A stretch of 64,000 nt of DNA from Hydractinia symbiolongicarpus (Eukaryota; Cnidaria; Hydrozoa; Anthoathecata; Hydractiniidae). The translations under genes and the position numbers were made by a program. The stretch lies in the NCBI RefSeq assembly GCF_029227915.1, contig NC_079885.1, positions 25,047,001-25,111,000 on the forward strand, written 5' to 3'. Positions within the stretch are counted from its first letter, which is position 1. Each line of letters opens with the position of its first letter. The notes beneath the pieces are model-generated. The model saw nothing but the letters and a program-made list of their open reading frames with translations. It was not told where the DNA came from and made no database searches. Shown piece by piece: positions 27,678 to 37,975 of this stretch.

Positions 27678-29581
27678 GTGAAGGGCAATCTCAGGCGGCG
27701 TCTACCTTACTGGGAGAACATAGGCACTAATAAAACCATTTTAGAACTTATAAAATACGGATACAAAATTCCCTTTTTCACCACCCCTAAAAAGGCTTCT
27801 TTCAAAAACAACTGTTCGGCTCTTGACAATGAAGATTTTGCAAATAAGGAATTACACGAGTTACTTAAAACCGGAAGAATAAAAGAGATGGCTACTGAGC
27901 CACACGTGGTTAATCCACTGAGCGTTGTTAGTTCGTCCAAAAATAAGAAGAGACTTATTCTTGACCTGAGACATGTAAACAAACACGTGTACAAACAAAA
28001 AACCACATTTGATGATTGGAAGATTTTCGGAGAATTTGTTGAGGAAAATGGTTTCATGTTTAAATTTGACATAAACAAGGCTATCATCACATAGAAATTG
28101 CTCCAGAGCATCAAAAATAATTAGGATTTTCTTGGGTAACAAATGACGAAAAAAGGTATTTTATTTTTACAGTCCTACCGTTTGGTCTCTCTTCTGCCCC
28201 CTTTATTTTCACAAAAACAATGCGAGTCCTCGTAAATACTGGCGAGAACATGCTATAAAATCTGCATGTTTTATTGATGACGACGCTGGCACAAGCAATA
28301 CCTATGAATCGACTCTGAGGGCGTCAAACTTCGTCCGAGACTCGCTTATGAAATCTGGGTTTGTCGCAAACAACGACAAATCTCTGTGGAGTCCCACTCA
28401 AAACATGACATGGCTCGGCATTAATCTAGATCTGAAGAAAAAACTTTTTTCTACACCTTCCCAGCGATTAATTTCTACTCTTTCGAGTTTACAATTCATT
28501 CTTGATTCCCTACCGTACACGTCAGCACGAAAATTAGCAAAATTTTGCGGGAAAAATCATATCCATGAAAGTTGTTATAGGCAATTTGGCTTAACTGAAA
28601 ATTAGACGAGTTTATTATCTTATTGAATCGCGAATATCACGGGACTCCCGAATAAACATGTCACACGCTTCAGAAGCTGTGAAAGAACTGTTCTTTTGGA
28701 AGAACAATCTGCTAAAACACACTGAGAGACCAATGACACGGGGAAATACTCCCTGGTTAATCGTTTGTTCTGATGCGAGCGATACAGGGCTGGGTGCGCA
28801 CACGTGGTACAAGAATAGAATGCATATTTCTATTAAGAATTTCACACTAACGGAAAGCCTAATGCACTCCACGTGGAGAGAGCTATACGCTATACAATAT
28901 TCGCTACAATCATTAAAAGCAGTTTTATGCAACAAAGCAGTACTTTGGAAGACAGATAATTACGCGAGCCATTGTATAATAAAAAGAGGCAGCTCAAAGG
29001 AAAACTTACAGATATTGGCAGAAAATATTTTTGATATTTGTAAGAAACAAAAAATAGATTTAAATGTCGAATGGGTCCCAAGAAACCAAATTAAATACGC
29101 TGATAAATTAAGTCGTTATACGGACACGGACAATTGGGAAATCACAAAAAGCTTTTTCAAATACCTAAACAGGCTCTGGGGTCCATTCACCGTAGATAGG
29201 TTTGCTAATGACGAAAACAAAAAGGTGGGCAGGTTCAACTCAAAATATTATTGTCCGGAAACTGAATGCGTAAACGCCTTTAATACCTCGTGGGAAAACG
29301 AAAATAATTTACTCGTGCCCCCGATTCAAACGATATCAAAGGTTTTAAAACACATGCAGACCTGTAAAGCTTCGGGCACACTGGTGGCCCCATACTGGCC
29401 TTCGGCAGCGTTTTGGCCATTTTTTACTGATTCAACAGGGGACTTCCAAAAATTTATTAAAAACTTCAGGATCTTTGACAATCCCAATTTATGCGTTACT
29501 CAAGGAGAGTGCAAAAAATCCGCCATAGGTTCAAAGCATTTTAAAAGCAAAATAATAGCTTTCAAACTGCAATTTACATAA
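27678..29581 (+). pseudogene. DIRS RT-RNase H polyprotein (several frame breaks)
   Basis: The first block (27678-28094) holds the RT fingers with RLILDLRHVNKHV and FKFDIN. After a one-base slip near 28070 the reading continues in another frame, with an in-frame TAA near 28120, to VLPFGLSSAPF. After another slip comes the catalytic FIDDDAG near 28270-28290 and TWLGINLDL near 28410. The last block (28658-29581, 307 codons, open) is RNase H: CSDASDTGLGAH, WRELYAI, KTDNYAS and WVPRNQIKYADKLSR. It is followed by the DIRS-specific tail with DRFAN and GTLVAPYWPSAAFWP. RT copies element RNA and RNase H removes it. At least three frameshifts and two or more stops make the RT non-functional, while RNase H remains open. 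Confidence 0.85.
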
Positions 29582-29626
29582 ACCGAATCCACAGGGACAG
29601 CGACGGTGTCGTCACCGGACTAAGAC

Positions 29627-30679
29627 ATGCAGTCACTGGACAAACAAAAACTCTTAAAATCAATAGGCAAATTTTTTTACATTTTAGAACTCTTTGCAAG
29701 TCATTTTACGCAACATTTGGAAAACGAAACTTTGAGGCATTTAGCAGAAGATCTACCATTACATATCTTAAATTCCAGGGCGAATAACACGATAAAAACG
29801 TACTATTATTCTTTTAATTCATGGAATACATGGTGTCAAAAATATTCTGTATCAAAATTACCAGCTCTACCGCTAACAGTTGCGTTGTACATACTTAACC
29901 TAACCCAAATGAACAATTCTTATCCTAAGATCGAAATCGCATTCTACGCTATCCAGTATTTTCACAATTTGACAGGCTACAATAACCCATGCGACCACAC
30001 TTTACCAAAAAATATGCTCGAAGCCGCTAAACGCCTACTACAACATCAAACCCGCAAGAATGACATAATTACGGTTGAACATTAGCACGCATTACATAAA
30101 CAACTTGTTAAAAGCGAAGCTGTTAACCTTTACAAACTTAGAACTTTTAATATCTTTCTCTTGGGATTCTGTGGCTTTCTTAGGTTTTCGGAAATTAGTA
30201 ATCTGAAAAGATGTGACGTCAATTACAAAAATAGCTTTATGAAACTGTTCATAGCGAAAAGCAAAACAGATATCTACAGAGAAGGACACTGGGTTTACAT
30301 CAGCGCTTGCGGAAATGGGATCTGCCCAGTATATAATTTAACTGAGTATATGAAGTATGTACCTGCTGAGCCTGATTCCTATCTTTTTAGAGCGGTCACA
30401 GTTACATCAAACAACAAATTCAGAAGTTTTAAAAAGATGAACCGCTCAATCAGCTACACAACAACAAGAGAAAATGCACTCGATGCACTGGCATCAATCG
30501 GATTGGATAGGACAAGATTCGGACTCCACAGCCTACGTGCTGGAGGAGCAACAGCAGCGGCAAATGCAGACGTCCCAGACCGTCTTTTTAAACGACATGG
30601 CAGATTGCGTTCGGAGACAGCCAAAGATGGTTATGTGGAGGACGACGCAGAGCATTTACTATATGTTACAAGGAATCTA
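29627..30679 (+). pseudogene. DIRS tyrosine recombinase (one TAG; 3' end split by insertion)
   Basis: Two open blocks in one frame (29627-30085 and onward from 30086) are separated only by a TAG at 30083-30085. The N-terminal half resembles the SAM-like core-binding domain. The catalytic half carries all expected residues: arginine in GFLRFSEISNL, the HSLRAGGAT box (H-x2-R), a later HG and the tyrosine in KDGYVEDD. This recombinase joins circular element DNA to the target. The insertion at 30680 replaces the last few codons; joining the flanks across it gives a natural stop three codons on. The fusion peptide now read into the insertion is an artefact. Confidence 0.85.
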
Positions 30680-30860
30680 CAATCATGGCTAAAACCTTTG
30701 GAATTTTCTGTCAAATCTACCATTCACCCTTTCCCCCATGTACAAAGTTGAGATAAGCAGCTGACCTTGTTTCAACATCAACTTTGTAGCTGGGGGGAAG
30801 GGGGGCTAGCTAGATTATGTCAATATTGTGTAGAATTTCATAAGGTTTTGGCCATGATTG
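30680..30860. repeat. Left terminal palindromic module (181 bp)
   Basis: Outer CAATCATGGCTAAAACC and inner GGTTTTGGCCATGATTG form a 19-base inverted pair. Further in, a second inverted pair surrounds the centre (CCCCCATGTACAAAGTTGA against TCAACTTTGTAGCTGGGGG), so the module can fold on itself almost completely. It is about 95 percent identical to 34241-34424 in direct orientation. The module alone resembles a MITE. Confidence 0.85.
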
Positions 30861-30965
30861 TCTGCAGTGCAGAAAAAACAAGAATTGGCCTAAAATATAG
30901 CAATACACATATTTTTTTTGAACACAGGCTCCCACACCAACACAAACTCATCCAGCATGGGCACA

Positions 30966-31025
30966 GCCTCATTCTGGTGCCGTTTTTGATTATTAGCCTC
31001 ATTCTCGTGCTATTTTTTGATTCCC
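30966..31025 (+). repeat. Tandem 30-bp repeat upstream of rep (iteron-like)
   Basis: Two adjacent 30-base units start GCCTCATTCT and share most positions (30966-30995 and 30996-31025); a weaker third start (ATCCTCAGTCT) follows. Tandem repeats next to an initiator gene are the usual binding sites for Rep proteins, so an iteron role is possible. This is inference from position only. Confidence 0.55.
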
Positions 31026-31204
31026 ATCCTCAGTCTGATGAAAAATGTAAACAAACCAAAGTTTAAGGCTGTAGAAGGTATCATGGTGATTCAGCTGTGT
31101 TGGTGCATGTGTTCAAAGCTACTAGGGGGTCTTTCACTGCTCAATTTGTGTCTTTAACACGTTAAAAGGTACTAGGTAACAGATTTTGCTGAAAATATGT
31201 ACAG

Positions 31205-31227
31205 TATATAACCAGAAATATATAAAT
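31205..31227 (+). promoter_or_regulatory. TATA-like boxes before rep
   Basis: TATATAA (31205-31211) and TATATAAAT (31219-31227) lie 64 and 50 bases before the rep ATG at 31269, a plausible spacing for a short leader. Confidence 0.4.
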
Positions 31228-31268
31228 TACATTCTACATACAGCTATAAACAACAAAACAGAAGAAAA

Positions 31269-32555
31269 ATGTCCTTGTCCTCAGACCAACGTAGTGTTTA
31301 CTTGATTACGTATAGCCATGCAGATCCCGCAAAAGTGGATAGCAGAGAGAAATTCGCAGGCATTTGGGTTGATGTGTTTGGCACGGATCTTGTCAAACAG
31401 TGGGTGTGTTCCTGTGAAAAACATAAAAATGATGATGCTGTACACTATCATCTCGCCTTGAAACTGAAAAGGGTGAAGCAATGGAAAATGGTTCGGGAGC
31501 AGGTTATTCGTAATCAAGTTATTGTTTGCAATTTTCAAGAGTTTCACACAAATTATTATGACGCGTATAGTTATGTAACTAAAGAGGACTTAGATTATGT
31601 TACTTCAGAGGGCAATGCTATGCTCGCAAACTTACCTCAAACGAAAAAAGCATCAATAGCAAAAAGAGCAAGAGTAGTAGGTTCTGCATTAGATTTGCGC
31701 GTACGTCCAGCTCAACAAAATAAGAAGCGACAGCGGCTTGACACAGTGACTGTTTACGACATAATATTAGAAAACAATATTCATAACGAACGCGAACTAT
31801 TTGTGTTGGCTCATTCACAAAAGGAATAGGGGAAAACTGACCTGTTAGAGTACGTACTAAAAATTTCAGACAAACGGAGGGCAGAATTAATTAGAACGGC
31901 ATGGCGGATCGAAAATTCAACAAAGGAAAGTGAACGTTTGAAGCAAACAAACATGGAAATACTTGAAAAGGCGACAGAGAATCAGTGTGTTTGCTACGGG
32001 CAGTGGAGTATTCACGCTATAGAAACTCTACATAAAAATAACATAGACATTGAACATTTCAAAACAGCAATAAAAAATGCAATACAACACGGTCGTAAAA
32101 AAAACAACAACGTGATAATCGTAGGTCCATCCAATTGTGGAAAAACATTCCTGTTACAACCAATCACAGAAATATTCAAATGTTTCGTTTCGCCAGCAAC
32201 AGGGACATTTGCCTGGGTGGGAGCAGAAAGCGCGGAATTAATTTTTCTTAACGATTTCAGGTGGACCGAGAAGTTAATGCCATGGTCTGATTTTTTAAAT
32301 TTGCTTGAAGGCCTTCCAGTACATTTGCCGGCACCAAAGACACACTTCGCAGAAGCCATCTTGTGGACCAGAAAAACACCGATATTGGCTACCTCCAGTA
32401 TGCGAATTCGCAAATATGATGGTGGTGTTGTGAATGATATTGAGACAGGTATGATGGATACACGGTGGAGGTATTTTGAATTTGTTAAGCCTATTATGAA
32501 CCCAAAAGAAATCAAACCTTGTCCCTGTTGCTTTGCAAACCTGATTCTCGGTTGA
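31269..32555 (+). pseudogene. Rep initiator: HUH endonuclease plus SF3 helicase (one TAG)
   Basis: A single frame of 428 codons interrupted only by TAG at 31827-31829 (codon 187). The N-terminal endonuclease shows motif 1 (YLITYS, residues 11-16), the metal-binding HYH (residues 59-61) and the catalytic YVTK (tyrosine 102, lysine 105), the one-tyrosine arrangement of CRESS-DNA virus and plasmid Reps. The C-terminal half is a superfamily-3 helicase with Walker A GPSNCGKT (near residue 286), Walker B (ELIFLNDFRW) and motif C (ILATSS). Such proteins nick an origin and unwind it for rolling-circle or rolling-hairpin replication. Length fits the family. The TAG falls in the linker between the domains, so either a recent nonsense change or readthrough is possible. 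Parvovirus-type NS1 is an alternative relative; I cannot decide without a tree. Confidence 0.8.
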
Positions 32556-32568
32556 CATTGTAATGTGA

Positions 32569-32590
32569 ACGGTTCACGCCCGTGAACCGT
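32569..32590. repeat. Perfect hairpin 1 between rep and transposase
   Basis: ACGGTTCACG, a CC loop, then CGTGAACCGT: 10-base perfect arms, 14 bases after the rep stop. A second overlapping palindrome (GTGAACGGTTCAC) can form with the bases to its left. An AATAAA follows near 32602. It could be a replication-origin stem, a cruciform, or a 3' end signal for the convergent transcripts. Confidence 0.8.
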
Positions 32591-32634
32591 CAAAATATAA
32601 TAATAAAAGAAATATTTTTTTTTTTTATATAACG

Positions 32635-32656
32635 ACGGTTCACGCCCGTAAACCGT
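32635..32656. repeat. Hairpin 2, direct repeat of hairpin 1
   Basis: The same stem-loop occurs again 66 bases downstream, with one arm mismatch (CGTAAACCGT). The AT-rich spacer between them contains a long T run (about 32615-32626). Duplication of an identical stem argues for a protein- or DNA-structure-dependent role. Confidence 0.8.
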
Positions 32657-32857
32657 TTCTGTTAAACTTACAAAGCTATTTTATCCTTTATTGGTTTTGT
32701 TATATATGTTATGTTCTTATATAAACATGATATAAAAAGGTATGTACAAAACAGAAGTTGATGCACAAATACAGCATCACCAAAACAACAAGAAAACTCT
32801 AAATGGGCAGTTTCAAAACAAAACAAACATACTTTTGTCTTATCCGAGGGGTGTCTG

Positions 32858-33978
32858 CTAATATTTTGTTCTTATCCCTTTATTTTTGATTATCATATCC
32901 AGACGTTTCGGCATAGATTCAATTGTACGGTTTATCACGTCAGCTGGAAAGTTCACAATGGTACGTTTTACTCTTCTGCAGAACTGTTCGTAGCTTTCCT
33001 TTGTGATGCCAGTGTCTATTGCCTCCTTTTTCAATTGCTTACCGACCAAGTGAAACACATTTTCTATTGGATTCAAGTCTGGGGATCGAGCAGGTATCTT
33101 AAATAATCTACACCCTATATCATCCATTGCAGCACGTGCAAGGGCACTGTTTAGGGATGGATCCCCATCTTGCGAAAATAACATACCTCTTTGGTTTGCC
33201 GATTTTGCGAACATATTTGGAAAATGCTCACGGATGAAGGTTGCGCACATTTCTGCATTTACATTTCCTGTGTAGTGATGGCATTTGATAGTGCCAGCTC
33301 CATAAGAAATTGCGACCATGAATCTTGCTACTTTGCCTCCAACGCCTTCTTTTTTCCTTTCGCAGTGCAATGACCACTTAAACTTTCACCATGTTTTCTC
33401 CATGTCCTTGAACGCAGGGTGCGCGCATGTTGACTGGGATTAGTTTTGTGTACCCACGATGTACCATCCAAATAAAATGCGATTCCCTCCTTCCAAAAAG
33501 TAGACGGTAATCGTTTACATCTTCGAGCAAACTTCAACCGTTCGCTCAAGTCTTTTTTAGACAATTGTCCTTTACGCCGACACTGTGCATATGTGTATCC
33601 CATTTCGTGTAAATACCTTCTAACAGTTCTATTTGATATGTCTTTAGTTGATATACACGCTTCATGCTGGATGTCAGTCGAGCAGAAATTTCCTTCGGTT
33701 TCCCGTAATTTCAATAGTGAAGCAACTATTTTTCTTTTGTCTCTGTCGGTGCCTTTACGAGGACGGCCACCACAATTCTTTTTCGTTGTGTTTATGTTAG
33801 CAGCAGGAATCGCTGCCACAGGTTTTTTCATGTGTCTGTAAATTGTTGTCCGAGAGTACTGTGGGTACAGTGTCTGTAGGTGGGCCAACGTTTCACCCTT
33901 CTCTTGGTGAAGGTACCGCAAAACCAAAGATACCGCCTGTGGCATCGGTTCACGTTGATTTTTTGTTTTTGTTGTCAT
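32858..33978 (-). pseudogene. Tc1/mariner-type DD34E transposase, two overlapping frames
   Basis: The upstream frame (33978-33328) has an N-terminal helix-turn-helix region (residues 10-50), a GRPRK linker typical between paired-like DNA-binding subdomains (residues 71-75), a second HTH and the first catalytic aspartate in FYLDGTSW (residue 171). The downstream frame (33370-32858) supplies the second aspartate in FSQDGDP and the glutamate in SPDLNPIEN, 34 residues later (DD34E). The join is at an A run (33350-33355), where a -1 slip at A-AAA-AAG in the correct register restores the frame. This is either a one-base deletion or programmed frameshifting. Together about 370 residues, close to the usual Tc1 length. 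It would cut at the terminal modules and insert at TA. Confidence 0.88.
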
Positions 33979-34240
33979 TTTTATTTTCAGCTGTAAAAGA
34001 AAGGAAAATAGTATTATACAGTAAAGTTCATATCATTGTTATGTACATGTACATTCGTTTGTTTACCTACAATACACAGAAGCCTAGAAACTAGAGTGTT
34101 ATTCACTTAGAACTATTCCGGTTAAGAAGCACCCCACACTTCCCTGTCTCACACGAAAATAAGTAAAACTTATGTTTCAGGGCAACCCATCTTCTTTATT
34201 AAGGATATTAGTATATGTCAACACAGTAACATTTTGCAGA

Positions 34241-34424
34241 CAATCATGGCCAAAACCTTTGGAATTTTCTGTCAAATCTACCTTTCCCCCTTTCCCCCAT
34301 GTACAAAGTTGAGATAAGCAGCTGGCCTTGTTTCAACATCAACTTTGTAGCTGGGGGGGGGGAGGGGGGCTAGCTAGATTATGTCAATACTGTGAAGAAT
34401 TTCATAAGGTTTTGGCCATGATTG
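34241..34424. repeat. Right terminal palindromic module (184 bp)
   Basis: Same structure and direct orientation as the left module, with about eight substitutions and a longer G run. The flank TGCAGA to its left mirrors TCTGCA to the right of the left module, so the inverted symmetry of the element extends about six bases beyond each module. Confidence 0.85.
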
Positions 34425-34426
34425 TA

Positions 34427-34916: not shown

Positions 34917-36373
34917 TTCGAGGCGCCCTGTATCTGAGAAAACGTCACTTGATGTTAGTAAAAATGACCTATGATCACCTTGAACCAAAAGAATTGGCTG
35001 ATTTTCTTGAGATACTGGGAGAGGTTGAAGTTGGGACTGAAAAACTTAAAAAATTCTATGGGGAAAATGAAGCAAAGCAAAAAAATGTGAGTTCATATGA
35101 TTGCTGCTGTTATTAGAATTATAACTTCATAGAGTATGCACCTTGTAAATCCATGTTCTCCTGTATCATGTTTTCTTCTTTCTCCTGTAACGAGATGCTT
35201 CCCTCTTCTTGTGCTATTTCTATTTTCTGATGTTATAAATTTTTATATCTCTATAATAATGACGTCTGCCCATCTGTGAGTCGGAATGGTGGCTGGTGGT
35301 TAATGCTTATTTATTTTGTTACACTTTTTTACTAAGTACAAAAGTTATTTTATGGGGAAAATATTAAAGTTATAATTTATCCGTCGTAAAATCATGGTAA
35401 AAAACATGGGAATTAATCTATCTAAAAATCCACGTTAATTCACCTTTTGCTAGTCGTAGCTACCATCTCTGGCTTACAGACGGACGGCGTTATATACATT
35501 TGCATTTTTTCATCTAGGTTGAGGTTGCACCTGTCAAAACATACTCACTGCGTGAAGGTACAAAAAGCGATAAACAGCAGGTATATATAAAAAAATTAAT
35601 AAAACTTGTGCCGTAAATACTTAGTTTAGTAATTAGGATGAGCACATGCGCATCATTTCGTATTGAAGTCCTAAACCTGGTGTATTTTAAGATATAGAAA
35701 ATTACGCTGGATTAACATGTTTCTAGAATGACTTTTATACTGGTCATATGCATTTAGCTTAACATTATCATGCATGCTATATGCTGTTGTACTCTTTTTT
35801 CCCTATTTTAGAATAAACCTTTATCGGATTCCGAAGATGAAAGTGATTTCAACAGTGACAGTACTGCAGAAAGTATGCACTCCGACACTTCGGACGAGGT
35901 TTTAAACACAACAGAAAAAACAACTGGTTCTTTTGTGAGGTCAGATGAAATGGTAATATATATAGCGTTTTACGTTGCTTAATTATAATGTTATGTGAAA
36001 TTTCCAAACCAAATTTTTCACAGGTTTAAGCACATTTTTCACTGGGTTAATAATAGTTCGTAGAAAATTTTAAAAAAAATGCTAAGAATGAAATTAAGGG
36101 ATTAATAGGAGGAATAATAAATGTTTTAATTTTAGATATTTAGTGAAAAATATGCTGATACCAAACAAGAAGACCTGGTTAAAGGAAGAAAACATGATAG
36201 GCGTATATTTCTTGCCCTTACGTATGCGTGTGAGGAACTTATAAAACGTGCAGATTACGATAATGCGTTTAGCACAAGAAGTTTTACTGCAAAGGAAGTG
36301 AAGGCGTGTATTCAAAAACATGAACGAATACGAGAAATGTGTAAAATGAACGACGCGGATTATTGGAAATATC
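34917..36373 (+). pseudogene. Spliced gene of unknown family, exons 1-4 (exon 4 broken by a LINE)
   Basis: Four exons with good splice sites, joined in phase 0 throughout. Exon 1 is 34917-35086 (donor GTGAGT; ATG at 34964 or open upstream). Exon 2 is 35518-35580 (acceptor ATCTAG, donor GTATAT). Exon 3 is 35812-35952 (acceptor TTTTAG, donor GTAATA). Exon 4 runs from 36136 into the repeat at 36374. The product has a helical N-terminus (LEPKELADFLEILGEVEVG), an acidic serine-rich middle (SDSEDESDFNSDS) and a basic helical part (RRIFLALTYACEELIKRAD). I do not recognise the family. Consistent phases and codon sense argue for a real gene. A LINE with an (AAT)n tail sits in exon 4, so this copy is probably dead; a possible tail exon lies at 37993-38085. 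Confidence 0.6.

Positions 36374-36466
<93 letters not shown>
36374..36466. repeat. (ATT)n microsatellite, the LINE tail
   Basis: About 31 uninterrupted ATT units. On the minus strand this is (AAT)n, lying at the 3' side of the minus-strand LINE, so it is most simply the LINE's 3' tail. The poly-Asn and poly-Ile frames here are repeat artefacts. Confidence 0.9.
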
Positions 36467-36467
<1 letters not shown>

Positions 36468-37975
36468 ACATATATTTGGCATCCATAATTTACAAATGGT
36501 TCTTCTGCCTACAAAAAAATAAAAACTATAAAAATCTATAAAATCTATAAGATCAGTAAAAAAATATATTGAATCTAAGTGCGTAATGAAATAAATGGGC
36601 TCACAGAGTACGAAATGGTGCCGGTAGAGTAAGTAGACACATTGAACAAGAAAAAAAAATAAAAAAATAAAAAAATAATTAAAAATAAATAAATTGATGG
36701 CACCGATGTAAGGACACACAAAAAAGGTAGAACTATAATGAAAAGATGGGGGGAAATAGGTAGCCTACATGCATAGAGTTATTCACATTATTTGGATAAA
36801 AGTTTGCACAAAGCACTATCGTGTAAAAATAATTTGACTTTTTTGATAAATTCTTTATGGTTGACAACGGAACGAATATTGCCAGGAAGATCATTAAACA
36901 ACGCTGATGAGCAATCCATAAACGTTTTTCGGAATGTGTCGCTTTGTAGTTTATTTTTGTTTTCTGCATCAGATCGCAGGCTTCGACCATTTTTGTACCA
37001 TTTCAGTGTAAGGTATTCAGGTGAGCATTCGTCATACAACACCTTGTGTGCCAGTTTTAGTATCGATAAATTTACACGCTCTTGCACTGGCAGCCATTTC
37101 AGTATTACTAACACATCGTTAGTGGAAGCATATCTCTGAAGAACAAAGCTGGCAGCGACATTTAGAACTCTTTGTAACCTTTTCATTTGATATTGTGGAA
37201 TATTACTATAGACTAGTCGTTGCCCGTGGAAAAATCCACGGGTTCGCCCGTCCATTATATTTACCCGTGGCAACAAAGTGGATAAAAATATATCGCATTT
37301 GATATTCGTGTTTCCGTGACATAATTTTCTAACTCAGCGGGGGTTCCGCGCAGAGACAGACAGACGGAATACGGCTATTATAATATTATTATAGACAAGA
37401 TTTCCGTAGTCTATCTTTGATAATATCAGTGCTTCAGCGAGATTCTTTCTCACGTGAAAAGGTGCCAAACGTTTCAATCGCTTTAATGTCGAAATCGTAG
37501 CGTATGATGATCTAATGATGTTATTCACATGTGTAGACCACGTCATATGTTCATCGAATGTTATGCCCAGTATTTTGAGAGAGGATACCCGCTCAATCTC
37601 AGCACCATTACTATGGAATTTGAATAAGTTACTGAAGTTTAAATTGTTTATACAGCTTAACTGGCTTGTCGAGTACATAATTGATTTTGTCTTTATGGAA
37701 TTAAACATCAGATTGTTTATCTTTGACCATGTTGTTATTTGGTTAATGTCACTTTGAAGCTTTGCTGTTGCGATATCCATTTCTTTTAGTTTGAAGTGTA
37801 TGTAAAGATTTGTGTCATCTGCGTACTGGATAGAATTACACGACGAATTCAACGATAGGTCAGAGACATAGATGTTGAACAAGATCGGACCAAGAATAGA
37901 TCCCTGGGGAACACCGTATTTGATCAGCAAGGTGTCCGATTTTTTGTCATCAATTTGCATCTGGTTTTAAATCTG
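36467..37975 (-). mobile_element. 5'-truncated CR1/L2-like LINE, minus strand
   Basis: Minus-strand RT pieces start at about 37960. GVPQGSILGPILFNIYV and the catalytic YADDTNLY come first, then the LKILGITFDEHMTWSTHVNNI thumb block, ending at a 169-bp insertion (37214-37382). Downstream, the same frame resumes in 37199-36788 with ILKWLPVQERVNLSILKLAHKVLY to a stop. An untranslated stretch (36787-36467) and the (AAT)n tail follow. The RT domain N-terminus and endonuclease are missing. It is closely related in motif layout to the LINE at 38815-40000. The 5' junction at 37960-37990 shows a duplicated 'ctggttttaaat', probably filler from integration. Confidence 0.85.
37214..37382. mobile_element. 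169-bp insertion with 14-bp target duplication inside the LINE
   Basis: ATATTACTATAGAC at 37200-37213 recurs with one mismatch at 37383-37396. Between them lies a block starting TAGTCGTTGCCCGTGG, with a CCACGGG palindrome, and ending in 'gacagacagacgg' and 'ctattata'. A 14-bp duplication is typical of LINE-mobilised SINEs. I see no Pol III boxes, so the class is open. Removing it restores the LINE frame. Confidence 0.8.

Follow-up and report, generated by a model that had tools for sequence, protein, structure and literature searches.

Convergent Rep and Tc1 transposase genes in a TA-flanked unit of Hydractinia symbiolongicarpus: a candidate group of chimeric mobile elements

Transposons of the IS630-Tc1-mariner superfamily (Tc1, Tc3, Sleeping Beauty) usually carry the transposase as their sole gene, although this is not strictly defining. 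Helitrons and Replitrons are eukaryotic transposons that move by means of an HUH enzyme alone, with no DDE transposase; Helitrons have a superfamily 1 (SF1) helicase, make no target duplication and can form tandem arrays. In Teratorn, bidnaviruses and Polintons a DNA-integration enzyme is joined to viral-type replication genes, with other enzymes, sizes or capsids, and to our knowledge none of them joins a Tc1 transposase to a Rep made of an HUH nuclease and a superfamily 3 (SF3) helicase. Here, we describe a unit of 3745 bp (30680-34424) with such a gene pair in a 64,000-nucleotide stretch (C11:25047001-25111000, hereafter the window) of the genome of Hydractinia symbiolongicarpus, a marine hydroid that is tractable in the laboratory. 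We take this unit to represent, as a single copy, a diversified set of chimeric mobile elements, in which Rep would copy the element out and the Tc1 transposase would paste it in, and we put the probability of this reading at roughly 0.6. By title or abstract, no Rep-bearing Tc1 element was described in the literature searched, which left Repbase and most subscription journals outside its coverage.

The unit resembles IS630-Tc1-mariner elements in its DD34E transposase with a Tc3-type helix-turn-helix (HTH), its TA duplication and its inverted outer ends. It is unlike them in the added HUH-SF3 Rep gene, the direct palindromic end modules, the preference for CTAG and the formation of multimers in which n units have n+1 modules. 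Parvoviruses, represented by Rep68 of adeno-associated virus (AAV) and by their inverted terminal repeats, provided the best fold match in PDB and also have palindromic termini able to form hairpins, whereas the element has head-to-tail multimers and a TA-duplicating transposase. With the circular Rep-encoding single-stranded (CRESS) DNA viruses, and with RepE1 cressviruses in the sections consulted of PMC11071296, it shares a single-tyrosine YxxK HUH nuclease with an E1/NS1-type SF3 helicase, cnidarian hosts and high-copy integrated sequences; unlike them, the units that were read had no capsid gene and possessed a Tc1 transposase and TA-flanked ends. The same sections report RepE1 cressviruses in sea anemones with apparent high-copy integration, and there transposase, mariner and Tc1 go unmentioned (PMC11071296). 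Each half of the unit is thus of a known kind, and the novelty lies in the joined element and in the anatomy of its multimers.

Limits, genes and end modules of the unit

The earlier note on this DNA had proposed that the unit, as a new type of element, inserted as a whole at a TA and interrupted a DIRS gene. Its left flank was found to be DIRS sequence, of which the genome has 23 further close copies (84-99% identity). All five of these paralogues that were fetched were uninterrupted and had one TA, within CTAG, at the site in question; the limits of the unit are exact. As the note had read, TA was confined to the outer edges (30678-30679 and 34425-34426); at the inner module edges GATTG was followed by TCTGCA, and TGCAGA by CAATC. 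Separate ends or a target duplication inside the unit, which would have set the rep segment apart, were not found on reading edges and repeats. The host DIRS-type element, split by the unit into 27678-30679 and a part from 34427 on, has reverse transcriptase/RNase H, a Dam-like methylase match and a tyrosine recombinase, and none of its 23 other close copies lies in tandem with another.

The rep gene runs on the + strand (31269-32555) and the transposase gene convergently on the - strand (33978-32858), an arrangement suggested before and borne out by the open reading frames (ORFs), by DDE_3 and HTH matches and by intact Rep relatives (Table 1). Neither gene of the window copy is intact, which the note had not mentioned: an in-frame stop at 31827-31829 interrupts rep, and a frame change splits the transposase into two frames that overlap at 33328-33370. 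Counted by eye in the translations, 34 residues separate the second D from the E of the DD34E triad. The transposase P0006 matched SB100X (Sleeping Beauty; E=9e-10) and Tc3 (E=0.0031) in PDB, as well as an IS630 transposase in NCBIfam, the latter below its cut-off.

The two end modules of the window unit (181 and 184 bp) had been recognised as near-identical palindromes; they are 94.6% identical and, a point unmentioned in the note, they are direct repeats. Each is nearly palindromic with 28-bp inverted ends (inverted-repeat identities 89% and 86%), and the outer 30 bp of the unit are inverted at 87%, although the whole modules are direct. The DNA folded beyond chance both in the module (z=-7.06) and in a palindrome between the genes (z=-6.36). 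Across the group the modules are palindromes of about 170-205 bp, and at 11 loci they have the ends CAAT... and ...GATTG, with a C-rich stem opposite a G-rich stem; strict double C blocks and strict double G blocks were each found at 9 of these 11 loci. The inner edge is TCTG at nine of the 11, the exceptions being C6a (TCTC) and C14 (TGGC). Both modules have the same orientation in all three families that could be read at both ends, namely the window family, C6b (over 118 nt) and C12b (over 40 nt, then truncated). A self-complementary stretch lies between the genes at 12 of the 13 other loci reaching that region, although it is small in L068; at L052 neither such a stretch nor a transposase was found.

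That two independent miniature inverted-repeat transposable elements (MITEs) flank rep and transposase by chance, or that separate elements are nested here, is scarcely credible. Modules do occur alone with TA flanks, as this explanation would have it, but the inner module edges are TCTG/CAGA and not TA, for which reason independent MITEs were rejected, only one module falls to each array unit, and the same arrangement recurs in diverged families. Nesting or chance adjacency was likewise rejected, since the gene pair was present in eight families among 18 loci.

Linkage of the two genes and identity of the Rep

In the genome searched (480.9 Mb in 76 sequences), the helicase part of Rep matched 90 places, and the C part of the transposase gave 150 scored places out of 201 candidates. 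Of the 53 Rep matches with E<=1e-20, at least 45 had a convergent transposase within 3 kb, and after merging sites closer than 60 kb this held for at least 31 of 33 Rep sites; these counts are lower bounds because 85 of the 150 transposase matches were used. Hence, the transposase is not the only gene of these elements, and the earlier concern that rep and transposase might always reside in separate elements elsewhere was not borne out. The eight Rep matches without a partner include five from one C1 array. Two runs of matches were noted: at C1:25565788-25604002 Rep matches follow one another at a spacing of about 6.96 kb, with a transposase match at one end only among the matches used, and at C13:8873733-8920540 there are tandem transposase fragments with a spacing of about 2735 bp and without Rep matches.

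Comparison of 18 loci yielded eight families, between which the Rep C-parts differ by 33-65%; relative to the window, the helicase part was 41-63% identical in tblastn pieces. Rep and transposase distances were correlated among 10 representatives (r=0.69; 18 of 20,000 permutations were as high), a correlation driven in part by two shallow pairs. According to the Hydractinia genome paper, Tc1-IS630-Pogo elements account for 0.48%, and 48% of the sequence consists of unclassified repeats (PMC10411563).

The two halves of the window Rep gave Pfam matches to REP_ORF2-G2P (0.0022), PPV_E1_C (0.0002) and Parvo_NS1 (0.0016), all under the curated cut-offs; alone they are weak, and the case for an HUH-SF3 Rep is made by comparison with intact relatives. 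Five intact Reps from five families were available (38-52% identity to the first), and H76, H78, Y119, K122, K321, D358 and R431 (P0001 numbering) were kept in all five. We take H76/H78 to be the HUH histidine pair, Y119/K122 the YxxK motif and K321 the P-loop lysine. In all ten pairs of intact Reps the proportion of synonymous differences (pS 0.75-0.82, saturated) exceeded that of nonsynonymous ones (pN 0.33-0.46), and these substitution patterns indicate that the five proteins are under purifying selection; between close copies, dN/dS ranged from 0.13 to 5.6 and was too noisy to use, many pairs including dead copies. The Pfam helicase cut-off was passed by two of the five (P0001 for PPV_E1_C and Parvo_NS1, P0002 for PPV_E1_C), the nuclease cut-off by none.

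The predicted fold of an intact Rep had a mean predicted local distance difference test (pLDDT) score of 66.5 and a predicted template modelling (pTM) score of 0.45, the nuclease lying mostly at 80-90 and part of the helicase below 50. Its best PDB match was AAV2 Rep68 (E=2.8e-8, at a low template modelling (TM) score of 0.3), followed by the papillomavirus E1 helicase and by the Rep nuclease domains of vientovirus and geminivirus (target TM 0.70); matches in BFVD included U94 of human herpesvirus 6 (HHV-6) and parvovirus NS1. An NCBIfam search with Rep and a PHROGs search gave nothing useful.

These viral fold and Pfam matches, together with the capsid-bearing RepE1 cressviruses and their apparent high-copy integrations in sea anemones (PMC11071296, same sections), might suggest a CRESS- or parvovirus-like virus in integrated form, with a captured Tc1 transposase serving for integration and with capsid genes lost in these copies or helper-borne. 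We consider this improbable. Two genes only were recognised in the window unit and no third gene in L076, a derivative on C12, the other families having been read in part, and the intergenic space of the 3.7-4.0 kb units leaves little room for a capsid gene. Scans of viral contigs with both Rep halves, the C part of the transposase, the end pattern and the Rep alignment found no relative, which also counts against a virus. Searches of genome contig and phage collections led nowhere.

Copies, multimers and derivatives

Searching the genome for other full copies at unrelated TA-flanked sites, as the note had advised, recovered a second full copy of the window unit on C15 (98%) and a nearly full one on C1 (94%). 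On C4 we found a head-to-tail dimer that has a single module where its units meet and is bordered by CTA/TAG, and seven solo modules, a form that also occurs with TA flanks, were present at unrelated sites. When all families were taken together, 32 of the 33 readable outer ends had TA and 30 of the 33 had CTA/TAG; ends too degenerate to place were left uncounted, for instance those on the left of L047 and of L070/L071 and those on the right of the solo modules of C9 and C10. The right module of the C1 copy L040 has an outer left arm that repeats its right arm in inverted orientation. Its palindrome is thereby more perfect than those of related modules, and it looks as though one arm of the hairpin had served as template for the other.

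Longer multimers were also observed, and all multimers read were head-to-tail, with a single module for each unit both in the dimer and in the arrays. An array on C15 contains 12 Rep matches at a spacing of about 3978 bp with one module between units; ten of the other eleven loci are 0-6 substitutions from L055, and L064, which runs beyond the array edge, is 99.8% identical over 3092 shared bases. On the low-coordinate side the array ends in a module flanked on the outside by TAG, and its other edge is lost. On C12 there is an array of a 2752-bp derivative in which rep is reduced to its two ends and the transposase frame is open (386 codons). An array on C1, with 13 transposase matches, starts at the same spacing as this derivative, judged by match spacing only.

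The most reduced form was a gene-less 808-bp derivative of the C12a family, consisting of one module, stubs and the intergenic palindrome. It forms one array of 5 units on C11 and another on C7, whose length corresponds to about 12 units (11 hairpin matches), each bounded once by CTA...TAG and located at different sites; both ends of these arrays were read, and the interior in part on C7 only. The hairpin was found elsewhere in a further run of 3 and at four single places. Both Rep-deleted and gene-less units thus retain the module and the intergenic palindrome, and integrated copies, these forms included, look like n units and n+1 modules inside one CTA/TAG end pair.

Outside the unit, the window has a long trinucleotide repeat (36094-36522) whose opposite frames read poly-Asn or poly-Ile, and a - strand ORF (37334-37960) that by eye resembles a reverse transcriptase.

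Table 1. Coordinates of the element's features in the window.
Feature	Positions	Strand	Evidence
Duplicated TA, left copy (inside CTAG)	30678..30679	+	Single TA at the empty site in 5/5 DIRS paralogues
Left end module, palindromic, with outer inverted ends and an inner C-rich/G-rich stem	30680..30860	+	Fold z=-7.06; same anatomy at 11 loci
Inner edge TCTGCA beside left module, without TA	30861..30866	+	TCTG here in 9/11 loci
rep, first part (HUH nuclease), ending at in-frame stop 31827-31829	31269..31829	+	ORFs, profile search; motifs invariant in intact relatives
rep, second part, same frame (SF3 helicase); listed ORF begins at 31938	31830..32555	+	ORFs, profile and genome searches
Palindrome in the space between the two convergent genes, possible origin	32568..32657	+	Repeat search; fold z=-6.36; retained in Rep-deleted and gene-less derivatives
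Tc1 transposase, C-terminal part	32858..33370	-	DDE_3 E=1.9e-9
Tc1 transposase, N-terminal part, other frame	33328..33978	-	HTH_Tnp_Tc3_2 E=3.9e-9
Inner edge TGCAGA beside right module, without TA	34235..34240	+	Sequence reading, repeat search
Right palindromic end module, direct orientation	34241..34424	+	94.6% identity to left module
Duplicated TA, right copy	34425..34426	+	Empty-site comparison with DIRS paralogues

Copy-out and paste-in as a possible mechanism

CRESS virus Reps are known to release unit circles from between two tandem origins. Here, Rep would nick the element and start replication at one module and end it at the next identical one, and the product would be a one-module circle or a head-to-tail concatemer, the integrated copy not being lost; the end module and the intergenic palindrome are both candidates for the origin. 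The Tc1 transposase would recognise the inverted ends that each module has on either side, cut any module-to-module stretch, and paste it at CTAG with duplication of TA. As a consequence, single modules, monomers, multimers inserted as such and gene-deleted units would all be mobile. To go further and speak of a new class of DNA transposons with such a division of labour, the HUH-SF3 Rep copying out circles or concatemers and the Tc1 DDE transposase pasting monomers or multimers at CTAG, is in our view a matter of even odds.

The direct modules with inverted ends on both sides, the rule of n units to n+1 modules and the mixing of left and right modules would follow naturally if the mobile form were cut from a circle or a head-to-tail concatemer. 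When modules were compared, left and right ones did not form separate lineages, and in C6b the left module equals the right one over 118 nt, as against 2 and 5 differences to the left modules of two other copies. Arrays with one module per unit only suggest a circular DNA form; the multimers point to circles or concatemers and not to hairpin-type inverted dimers. Rolling-hairpin replication gives inverted dimers, and such head-to-head forms were rejected, since the multimers read head-to-tail. Membership among the Helitrons or Replitrons was rejected on the basis of the linked DDE transposase and the TA duplication.

Several observations weigh against this mechanism. Variants in the C15 array are common to blocks of neighbouring units, as unequal exchange would give, and the modules of the C4 dimer also fit unequal exchange; the arrays therefore grew at least partly in place. 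Multi-unit sites made up 5 of 36 in this transposase clade versus 1 of 35 for other DDE_3 matches, an excess that is not significant alone. The left and right modules of the window family differ by 7 substitutions, as many as or more than between copies. The trees of Rep and transposase disagree at depth, the transposase tree grouping C1c/C7 with the window family and the Rep tree not doing so, with low support; to judge from these trees, halves have probably been exchanged between families. In P0004, alanine replaces the second P-loop glycine. Finally, the circular or single-stranded form is something we infer from chromosomal copies alone.

The C15 and C4 patterns, the non-significant excess and the existence of Rep-deleted unit arrays would all suit a plain Tc1-type cut-and-paste transposon that captured rep long ago, in which Rep serves another purpose such as regulation or gap repair, and ordinary recombination between direct-repeat modules after insertion produces the multimers and solo modules. 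We regard this as rather unlikely, though worth serious consideration. The nuclease and helicase motifs are kept under purifying selection in diverged families, and cut-and-paste alone leaves end modules that are direct, not inverted, unexplained. In addition, one and the same gene-less unit of 808 bp forms multimers at two separate CTA...TAG sites, both ends of which were read.

The multiplication of cut-and-paste DNA transposons is usually ascribed to host repair or to the timing of replication. If copy-out by Rep and paste-in by the Tc1 transposase hold true, a replication initiator of the element's own beside its DDE transposase would amount to a copy-out/paste-in DNA transposon, that is, a copy-and-paste Tc1 element making satellite-like arrays and gene-less satellites directly. 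Because the tandem gene-less 808-bp units sit within one CTA/TAG pair, this would, if true, lead directly from a transposon to a satellite array. The finding may also give a transposon context to those cnidarian RepE1 sequences that are now read, in the sections consulted of PMC11071296, as viral integrations.

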